A stretch of 64,000 bases of DNA. It comes from Gammaproteobacteria bacterium (GTDB lineage Bacteria > Pseudomonadota > Gammaproteobacteria > Xanthomonadales > Wenzhouxiangellaceae). The stretch spans positions 1 to 64,000 of the forward strand of contig PXBD01000005.1 in assembly GCA_003565625.1 (NCBI GenBank), read 5' to 3'. The notes beneath the pieces are model-generated. The model saw only the letters and a program-made list of their open reading frames with translations, ran no database searches and was not told the DNA's origin. The position numbers and the translations under genes were made by a program. Of this stretch, positions 1-2,779 are shown one piece after another (position 1 is the first letter of the stretch; every line of letters starts with the position of its first letter).

Positions 1-765
1 AGCCAGACCCTCTGAGCGCATCTGGGCGCGCGAGCCCTCGTCCATCGAATCCACGATTAGTCGATGCCGGTAAACCCGATCACCCGGACCGTCGGAAGTA
101 TCGACCGGATCAATTATGATGCGGCGGCCCCTTCCTCGGAGTGCACCGGGTTTTCGGGTACGGGGGCGGCGATCATCGCGCACGTCGCGCAGTAGCGGCA
201 TAAGACCATCTATGACTTTCCGGTCATATTTCCCCCGTAATGGCTGTTCATGCTCCAGCAGGCTTTCCAGCGCCGTGCACAGCGCGTCCGGTGTCGCGGA
301 GTCCTTAATCGTCTTGTCAATCCTCGGATCCGAATGCTGGCCCTGGGCGACCCGACGGCAGGACCGGCCGGCAGACGAGACCGGCGACCGGTCGCTACAC
401 TCCAGGATGTAGTGCTCACGCGAGGCGACCGAGGCGAGGAAGATAGCCTGTAGCTTGCGGGCTACATCAGCATCTGAGCCGGCGCTCGGCTGAGCCGCCA
501 GCGCGGCAAAAATCGGATGGTCAGTGATGATGCCGCGGCGCGGTCCCAGACCAAGTCGAGGCAAGTCTACGGACTCGCCCTGAGCAACCACTGCACTGAC
601 ATCCTTGGCAACCCAGCCGATATCGTCTTTCTGACCTACAATGGCCTGCAGGCAGGGCTGAATCTTAGACAGCGAGTGGCAAACTTTTGGCCAGTCCGGA
701 TCCGGGTTCTCCGGGACATTGAGCAGCGTCAGCAGCCTACTCACGGGATCAGACATAAGGGTCAT
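1..765 (-). CDS. Hypothetical protein, C-terminus beyond left edge (>=255 aa)
   Basis: Manual reverse-strand translation from ATG at 765 stays open to base 1: MTLMSDPVSRLLTLLNVPENPDPDWPKVCHSLSKIQPCLQAIVGQKDDIGWVAKDVSAVV...RRIIIDPVDTSDGPGDRVYRHRLIVDSMDEGSRAQMRSEGLA. Absent from the ORF track because no stop lies in the window. Confidence 0.7.
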   Translation of the reverse strand, partial: MTLMSDPVSRLLTLLNVPENPDPDWPKVCHSLSKIQPCLQAIVGQKDDIGWVAKDVSAVVAQGESVDLPRLGLGPRRGIITDHPIFAALAAQPSAGSDADVARKLQAIFLASVASREHYILECSDRSPVSSAGRSCRRVAQGQHSDPRIDKTIKDSATPDALCTALESLLEHEQPLRGKYDRKVIDGLMPLLRDVRDDRRPRTRKPGALRGRGRRIIIDPVDTSDGPGDRVYRHRLIVDSMDEGSRAQMRSEGLA

Positions 766-968
766 GCCCGGCCTGCGGGCCGAATCGCTGCAGGATCGAC
801 AGGATTTGGGAAGCAGGAGTCAAATTTTTAATGCTTTTGTGCCTCTACATTTTGGGCACAATATAACGGCAATGGACCTTAAGCGTCAACCGGAAAAACC
901 CGGGGAAACTCCATTTTTCAGCTATTTACGTCGCTTTTCAGCCCCCGTCATACCTCTATAGGACTTGG

Positions 969-1014
969 GTTCACACGGCAGGGGTCGCTGGTTCGAACCC
1001 AGCATCGCCCACCA
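969..1014 (+). other. 3' fragment of tRNA-Val (anticodon loop to CCA), candidate att site
   Basis: TTCACAC loop, GGCAG 3' anticodon stem, GCTGG-TTCGAAC-CCAGC T-arm, ATCGCCC acceptor strand, A discriminator, CCA. The 5' flank (ctTGGG) does not pair with GGCAG and no GGGCGAT acceptor strand is present upstream. Confidence 0.8.
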
Positions 1015-1497
1015 TCAATTTCCAGCCTAAAGACCGATATAAACCACCTTCTGGCAGGAGCCAAAACCGCAGAATCAGCCCGAGATATCCCAATGATTCC
1101 GCAGGTCCGGCAGGCCTTGGAACAACAGCGCAAGATCACGCCGCTAGACAGGGAGTGGGTGTTTAGTGCACCGGAAGGCGGTCCTCTAGATGCGAAAAAC
1201 TTCTGCAAACGCGTCTGGTCGCCCCTACTCAAGCACCTGGGCCTGCCCTATCGACGGCCCTACCAGACTCGACATACCGCTGCCACGCTGATGCTCGCAG
1301 CCGGTGAGCAGCCGCAGTTCGTGAGTTCAATATTGGGGCACAGCAGCACGCAGATGCTCTACAGCACCTATTCTCGACATGTGCGCAATATGACACGCCG
1401 CGATGGTTCGGCCATGGCGAAGATGCTGTCCACATCACAGGAGTCGCCATCATCCCTGCTAGGCATTTTCCTCGGGATGTTTCCAAAGCAGAGCTGA
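1015..1497 (+). pseudogene. Tyrosine recombinase/integrase, 5'-truncated (C-terminal catalytic part only)
   Basis: Frame open from the tRNA fragment; AKTAESARDIPM...YQTRHTAATLMLAAGEQPQFVSSILGHSSTQMLYSTYSRHV carries the HxxR, GHSS and Tyr elements of the catalytic domain; the upstream domain and first catalytic Arg are missing. Confidence 0.8.
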
Positions 1498-1546
1498 AAT
1501 GGCTGCAATGGCCTAGTGTACCCCGTCATTTGCTCAGCGCCGGGAC

Positions 1547-1928
1547 TGTTGGGCTCGCCATTCGAGTGCAGGGTGGCGCGAAAGGTCCACTTTGATCCAG
1601 CATGACTGGTCGGTGCCCGAACCAGCGCCAGGTTCTGGCGCCCGCTGATCGCCCGGATCCGCTGTTCCAGCTCCGGGCGTTCGGCCATCATGGTGGACCG
1701 TTCGAGCGCGCCGATGTAATTGAGATCGATGTCAACCGAAAGTCGCGGCAATCTGAAATGATAAAGGTTGAGTGCGGTGCCACCCTTCAAGGCTAACCGC
1801 CCAGACAGATATGGATCACTAAACAGGGCCTGAAGCAGCTGCAGCAAACGGTCAACTTTCTCCAGAAACTCGATGCGGAAGCCACTTTCGGCAGCCAGCC
1901 GGTGCAGGGATTCAGCCGACAAGCTCAT
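1547..1928 (-). pseudogene. AbiEii/AbiGii-type nucleotidyltransferase toxin, C-terminally truncated
   Basis: LALKGGTALNLYHFRLPRLSVDIDLNYIGALERSTMMAERPELE matches the AbiEii nucleotidyltransferase core; recognisable similarity ends near base 1547 (HAGSKWTFRATLHSNGEPN), then unrelated residues to 1368. Confidence 0.75.
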
Positions 1929-2746
1929 GCCAGCTCATCCCAGCTTTGTTCGGCTAGGGAGACGGGAACCACCAGATTCCAGCCGGAGAGGTAGCGCGTG
2001 GATTCGCTGCTGGTGCGATCGAGGTAATGCGGACTGGCCGGTGAACGCGCGCGCAGCTTTTCGAGCGTCTGGTCGTCGACCATCAAACGAGAACGGTTGA
2101 CCTCCAGGTACCAGCCGACCTTGGCAGCCGTGGTGGCATTACCCAGAGCCTCGACATAGTGACACATGGCTGGCAAGTCCAGGTACTCGATCATGTCAAG
2201 TGAGCGCCAGACCTCCTCCCAACCACCACACAGCTCGGGTCGATCCAGGGCATCCACAAACGTACGCTCCAGCCCGGAAAACTTCAGTGGAACGCCGGAA
2301 CGATCCAGGGTTTCAATGCCGATCCCATCCTGACCGCTCCGCGTCAGGGCCGGCGGGGTTGAAACCGGCCGATACAGGGTGCCCCTGAACTTGAACGGAC
2401 GCAATTTGCGTTCGGCGAGAAACTGGAGCTCATTGAAACTGCTGTAGGCTCGCCCGTGCAACTCAAGGGCACTGTGATAGGCAAGGGTAGCGCCGGGCGT
2501 GATGTGCCCGGCAATCAGAAACGGATCGACCGGGCAGCTGTCCGGCTCGGAACCCGGAGGGACGACCCAGTAAAGTCCACGGCGAACCGGAAGAATGTGT
2601 CCTCGCTTGCGGTGGTAGTCCAACGAAGCCTTGCGGCCAGTGCCGCGAATATTGGTCGCGGCCTCGAACTGATCGACGCGAAACAGCTTGTGTCGCTTGA
2701 TAAAGGCCCCTGGCTCCATGAATTGATGAGTATCTGCTGAACGCAT
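1925..2746 (-). CDS. AbiEi-type antitoxin / transcriptional regulator
   Basis: ~273 aa with N-terminal winged-helix-like region; ATGA overlap with the downstream AbiEii start; type IV TA gene order. Confidence 0.75.
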   Translation of the reverse strand: MRSADTHQFMEPGAFIKRHKLFRVDQFEAATNIRGTGRKASLDYHRKRGHILPVRRGLYWVVPPGSEPDSCPVDPFLIAGHITPGATLAYHSALELHGRAYSSFNELQFLAERKLRPFKFRGTLYRPVSTPPALTRSGQDGIGIETLDRSGVPLKFSGLERTFVDALDRPELCGGWEEVWRSLDMIEYLDLPAMCHYVEALGNATTAAKVGWYLEVNRSRLMVDDQTLEKLRARSPASPHYLDRTSSESTRYLSGWNLVVPVSLAEQSWDELA

Positions 2747-2750
2747 AAAT

Positions 2751-2779
2751 ATTTTATGCTTCCAGAGCACAACTATCAA
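2751..2779 (-). promoter_or_regulatory. Predicted sigma70-type promoter for abiE operon (TTGATA-N17-TAAAAT)
   Basis: Reverse strand TTGATA (2779-2774), 17 nt spacer, TAAAAT (2756-2751), directly upstream of ATG 2746. Confidence 0.6.

Follow-up and report, generated by a model that had tools for sequence, protein, structure and literature searches.

The minus-strand reading frame at the left edge of the window (the whole stretch of 64,000 nucleotides analysed here, from a Wenzhouxiangella assembly) was identified as the front part of gene A. This gene heads a conserved pair, A-B, in which B encodes a giant tyrosine recombinase. The identity of the gene as part of the A-B module is firm. The mechanism that we propose for it, in which A and B, in most lineages with a small third protein S, would act as a mixed complex in the recombination of islands lodged in tRNA genes, is moderately supported, and we consider this reading somewhat more likely than not. 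A is very probably part of the apparatus that mobilises the island and not of its cargo, because it always stands beside the giant recombinase at the end of tRNA-lodged islands. The preliminary description had called the gene cargo or recombination-associated; the second part stood, the gene heading a conserved recombinase pair beside a displaced tRNA half, and assignment to the cargo was rejected on account of the constant recombinase pairing and the position at the att end.

The frame runs from base 765 to base 1 on the minus strand (255 codons) and is open at the window edge. Its stop-free run of 273 codons was reached in none of 300 shuffles, its differences from the homologue in Wenzhouxiangella sediminis XDB06, a relative from the same genus, are richest at third positions (111, 88 and 143 at codon positions 1, 2 and 3), and homologues matched at E values of 1e-51 to 1e-53. 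By these sequence measures, bases 1–765 of the minus strand are coding, which bears out the earlier report of a frame to the left of a tRNA-Val fragment that closes outside the window. That report had placed the start at the ATG at 765; the extent of the frame was confirmed, and the alignment favoured the second methionine, at window base 756, since homologues begin MSD and the first codons, MTL, are not common to them. Translation of the window gene thus probably begins at base 756. The feature (1..765, minus strand; 252–255 codons) is predicted to be the N-terminal third of gene A, whose homologues in two congeners have 771–772 amino acids, and the C-terminal recombinase-like domain would lie beyond the end of the contig. 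As window base 1 is also base 1 of contig C45 (118,867 bp), it is the assembly (2.8 Mb in 95 contigs, 89.5% complete) that truncates the gene, and not merely the window. Neither the remainder of A nor gene B was found elsewhere in this assembly; B was presumably once present in this genome.

Full-length homologues of A were found in the two congeners G027 (772 amino acids) and G002 (771 amino acids), both ~43% identical, so the frame is not one that closes beyond the edge without relatives. In both genomes A is overlapped by a gene for a protein of 1149 amino acids with an integrase domain, the tyrosine recombinase B. A comparison of neighbourhoods next to tyrosine recombinases, which the preliminary description had proposed, gave the same order throughout: in every one of the 33 proteobacterial loci whose contig extends far enough, B followed A, either overlapping it or within ~150 bp. 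Three of these 33 loci carry the pair as one open frame matching both A and B, encoding fusions of 1825 (L048:6633-12110), 1862 (L145:4288-9876) and 1151 amino acids (L151:4128-7583). A proteins have 740–890 amino acids and B proteins about 1000–1150. A single-protein search with A returned matches in 8 of 369 genomes of the class, and a profile search with A in 20 of 399 sampled proteobacterial genomes (5%). Copies, annotated or unannotated, were present in records of Vibrio, Aeromonas, Ketogulonicigenium and Acinetobacter. In a plasmid collection, a B-like gene occurs on more than 220 Acinetobacter plasmids; the two that were examined have the order small gene, A, B, and one copy adjoins type I-F cas genes. 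There were no matches in phages or viral contigs, and a phage origin was rejected. A was not recognised by models from Pfam, NCBIfam, PHROG or PADLOC, no match to named families including GMT, SE and BIM was found, and a literature search, with most subscription journals outside its range, yielded no description of the A-B module. The view that this edge was the best place to look for an undescribed system is thus supported by a conserved module that has neither a name nor a family model.

Judged by its sequence, B is a very large tyrosine recombinase whose active site is intact. It matched PF00589 (4.6e-5) and a PHROG integrase family (4.5e-11), as well as the solved structures of XerA (4.9e-11), Int and XerH, and the catalytic residues R610, K650, R732, H774 and Y784 were present in all 26 aligned sequences, the His-II position 729 in 24 of 26. 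With A, a XerA structure profile gave a weak match (3.2e-4), confined to the C-terminus and in the expected place. Comparison by hhalign of 26-row alignments produced weak matches of A, at 0.0014 with B and at 0.0023 with P4-type integrases, both collinear with the catalytic motifs; the profile comparison of A with B on small alignments gave no match. A retains the catalytic Arg and Lys in 26 of 26 sequences, Arg-II in 24 of 26 and the GH motif in 25 of 26. Its His-II is Asn in 24 of 26, and the nucleophile position (739 in P0001) is Tyr in 7 of 25, otherwise mostly Phe or His; the Wenzhouxiangella A proteins have His there. An AlphaFold model of A from a two-row alignment reached a pLDDT of 34, and the fold of A thus rests on the weak profile matches, which suggest a recombinase-fold protein with the nucleophilic tyrosine missing in most relatives; for the window copy this would apply by homology only. 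In most other loci the small gene S overlaps or closely precedes the start of A. Two members of S matched ParB_N and others HTH, in both cases weakly. Between A and att, S was absent from the window, G027 and G002, the Wenzhouxiangella branch. An S-like frame of 371 amino acids upstream of A in genome G114 (L042:12623-13735) contains a similar motif twice, as if S had been duplicated.

Next to gene A in the window lies an att site. Over 48 bp, positions 970..1017 on the plus strand match the 3' half of a tRNA-Val(CAC) that is intact on contig C25, with 98% identity. They represent the displaced 3' half (attR), which extends from the anticodon loop to CCA, and the tRNA-Val fragment described earlier is thus real. 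It lies 205 bp from the frame at 1–765, and the intact copy ends ~72 bp from the end of C25. The element-terminal DNA between gene A and att (813..969, unstranded) ends ACTTGG at the crossover and is partly conserved in two other Wenzhouxiangella elements, with 65–68% nucleotide identity to the equivalent place in G027 and G002. The two ends of the tRNA-Val site are on different contigs, C25 and C45. In the congener G004, the hydrolase gene adjoining the tRNA-Val, that tRNA and the ECH, hydrolase, SDR and MAPEG genes found to the right of the window fragment lie within ~12 kb, which indicates that the end of C25 and the start of C45 lie on either side of a single site, the island of which was not assembled. 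From this arrangement, which differs from ordinary core synteny on the left, the left of the window att is the island side, as had been claimed. Directly outside att, at 1018..1497 (plus strand), is the C-terminal remnant of a P4-type (arm-type) integrase (PF00589, E 1.7e-9), with 62% amino acid identity to the integrase of the W. sediminis island; only the C-terminal part is present, and there was no Arm-DNA-bind_2 match in this genome. It is most simply explained as left over from an earlier island in this tRNA, outside the A-B element as integrated.

Several minor observations concern this site. An AbiE pair is located to the right of att (1368-2779, minus strand); AbiEi is complete, and AbiEii matches over its first 117 residues only and then continues antisense into the integrase remnant, so that the toxin-like gene looks truncated. 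In G004 and G027 (L095 and L092) an intact tRNA-Val(CAC) is followed by another displaced 3' half 1.4–1.8 kb further on; these repeats appear to delimit very short elements, or what is left of elements, that lack a recombinase of the A-B family. A 48-bp match on contig C68 was rejected as a homologue of A, having no similarity to A in any frame.

The arrangement seen in the window recurs elsewhere. In the window and in 9 of 32 other loci, the 1 kb upstream of A contains a tRNA 3' half directed away from the gene; the reverse orientation was found in none (sign test p 0.002; the 10 loci include three congeners, and the G069 tRNA is intact). About two-thirds of A-B loci have no tRNA fragment near A, and the plasmid copies have none next to it either. 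Five elements of 27–66 kb could be delimited at both ends, with the intact tRNA on the same contig and the displaced 3' half at the other end: those of W. sediminis at tRNA-Pro(CGG) (27.4 kb), Aeromonas caviae at tRNA-Asp(GTC) (46.5 kb), G648 at tRNA-Gly(TCC) (66.4 kb), G517 at tRNA-Arg(CCG) (60.5 kb) and G579 at tRNA-His(GTG) (32.9 kb). In all five, A-B is opposite the intact tRNA, beside the displaced 3' half and reading inward, and the repeat starts at the anticodon loop, which marks the crossover; tRNA repeats of A-B islands measure 43–54 bp. For the W. sediminis island an empty site was available in the congener G024, which joins both island flanks at a tRNA-Pro(CGG) free of any insertion; the left flank stops ~100 bp short of the tRNA, and W. 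sediminis has ~2.3 kb more left-flank sequence without counterpart in G024. The features of a tRNA-integrated island, namely an intact tRNA, a displaced 3' half and an empty site in a relative, were therefore all found. The cargo of the W. sediminis island comprises genes for metal resistance, namely a cation diffusion facilitator, an ArsR-type regulator, DsbD, ZIP, an RND pump and an outer-membrane channel, and that of the Aeromonas island a tellurite Ter operon, DndF, DndG, a type II restriction enzyme and several transposases.

In the mechanism that we favour, A would be made together with B, and in most lineages with S, and A and B would form a mixed synaptic complex at the island att. Within this putative physical complex the labour would be divided, A placing the DNA and B cutting it. 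In the target tRNA, strand exchange would occur at the anticodon loop, leaving the island between the rebuilt tRNA and the displaced 3' half, next to which A-B would lie on the inner side. The loci and plasmid copies that have no tRNA fragment by A, and the lack of S in the Wenzhouxiangella branch, weigh against this mechanism. A P4-type integrase is often present on the same islands, and it is for this reason that we can only infer that A-B, rather than that integrase, makes the crossover. Such integrases target tRNA 3' ends by themselves, and the one on many A-B islands probably takes part in recombination. Genomes contain 0–3 arm-type integrases, and a P4-type integrase was found in 13 of 33 A-B loci, compared with ~0.2 expected (probability ~2e-20 under a simple model). 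Of the five two-ended islands, four carry it complete and one carries a remnant; it stands beside B in Aeromonas and G517 and ~9 kb away in W. sediminis.

This co-location, together with the general tRNA targeting of such integrases, favours a different account, in which the P4-type integrase alone integrates the island and S-A-B is a companion that controls the direction of excision, maintenance of the circle or exchange of cargo. In G579 the integrase is in the classical place, adjoining the intact tRNA, and ROD21-like islands position an integrase and a directionality factor near each att (PMC6035254). In G648, however, the only such integrase found is a 188-aa remnant at that place while A-B is intact, most plasmid and some chromosomal A-B loci lack a P4-type integrase nearby, and the six catalytic residues of B are nearly invariant, beyond the need of a helper; we consider this account rather doubtful. 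Possible, and put forward tentatively, is the fuller proposal that S-A-B is an integrative machinery in its own right, in which a degenerate recombinase, a giant active one and a ParB-like helper would form a hetero-complex targeting tRNA anticodon loops, widespread in Proteobacteria and without name or family model.

Two further explanations were given little credence. The defence genes on these islands (DndFG with the type II restriction enzyme in Aeromonas, cas genes at the Acinetobacter copy) and the weak ParB_N or HTH matches of S would fit a defence or maintenance system that is carried by the island and uses the recombinase fold. This is improbable: neither A nor B had a PADLOC match, position and orientation at the att end are fixed, and the module is constant while the cargo varies between metal, tellurite and Dnd genes. 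About as improbable is that A-B is a separate transposon-like unit prone to insert beside the att of other islands. The plasmid copies without a tRNA fragment next to A would agree with it, as would the block of 6.07 kb, A-B plus flanks, that is 96% identical between G027 and G002 beside differing cargo; yet that block ends almost at the att junction, one of its ends being the tRNA junction itself, and a search for terminal inverted repeats beside A found none.

The best reading of A-B islands is as a tRNA-targeted variant of integrative islands driven by tyrosine recombinases, with a multi-protein att module on a plan like that of SEs and GInts. Strand-biased circularizing elements (SEs) encode an ordinary and a large tyrosine recombinase, a protein with the recombinase fold but an incomplete catalytic set and a small auxiliary protein (PMC10214605), a parts list similar to that of the A-B islands, which are likewise integrative. 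They differ in gene order (intA-tfp-intB-srap, as against S-A-B with a separate integrase) and in their target, SEs, which circularize by strand-biased copy-out, having a 6-bp footprint at few selected sites and A-B islands tRNA repeats of 43–54 bp. On the SE-bearing plasmid pSEA1 the B profile had no match up to E 1 and A none, and identity with SEs was rejected on this negative test of IntA/Tfp/IntB/Srap homology. GInts (ginABCD) have several recombinases, of which GinC is catalytically degenerate, and a small GinD at one end of islands of 2.5–70 kb with variable cargo; they insert at protein genes with imperfect repeats of 10–17 nt, and their main text does not mention tRNA (PMC5385486). 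The degenerate recombinase, small protein and position at the island end are shared, but the GInt is a four-gene operon of three integrases and GinD, whereas here the module is (S)-A-B and the third recombinase is separate and inconstant; this distinction was drawn from the published description of GInts. Tn554 TnpA/TnpB/TnpC, RIT trios and BIM pairs are also adjacent, often overlapping recombinase genes, with proteins of 611–828 amino acids for Tn554-like long recombinases and 315–410 for RIT (PMC3414803), and the likeness of Tn554 to A-B, in adjacent genes and long recombinases, is again one of description. On pMOL30, which carries BIM, A had no match and B a weak one of 40 residues (E 0.006), so identity with BIM was rejected on a negative profile test for bimAB homology.

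P4-type islands likewise target tRNA 3' ends, displace a 3' half and often carry an arm-type integrase. A-B differs from the described P4-type module in lying at the end opposite the intact tRNA, and to our knowledge A, B and S fall outside that module. Should A-B prove to be the integrase, SEs and GInts would be joined by a third design with several recombinases, which would raise directly the question of why an active recombinase needs a degenerate partner. A marks tRNA islands with metal, tellurite and anti-phage genes, and used as a marker it could let island finders call elements that are currently missed.

The Gamma-mobile-trio (GmtX/Y/Z) is a further multi-gene recombinase module on proteobacterial islands. 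The GmtY model NF040693 (441 positions) did not match A or B, there was no GMT model among their NCBIfam matches, and identity with GMT was rejected by the GmtY search of nine genomes. One of the nine (G171, contig 9, L052) contains a true GmtY, well above the cut-off and away from the A-B pair. On contig 1 of G027 (L061, L062), identical 46-bp tRNA-Pro 3' halves at 1122054 and 1129125, ~7 kb apart, each precede similar sequence, as would be expected from a second element stacked at the same tRNA, and the arm-type integrase there appears interrupted. The Aeromonas caviae record NZ_AP026896.1 (L050; 4.94 Mb) is filed as a plasmid with 18 features only; it holds a tRNA set like that of an rRNA operon and looks like a chromosome.
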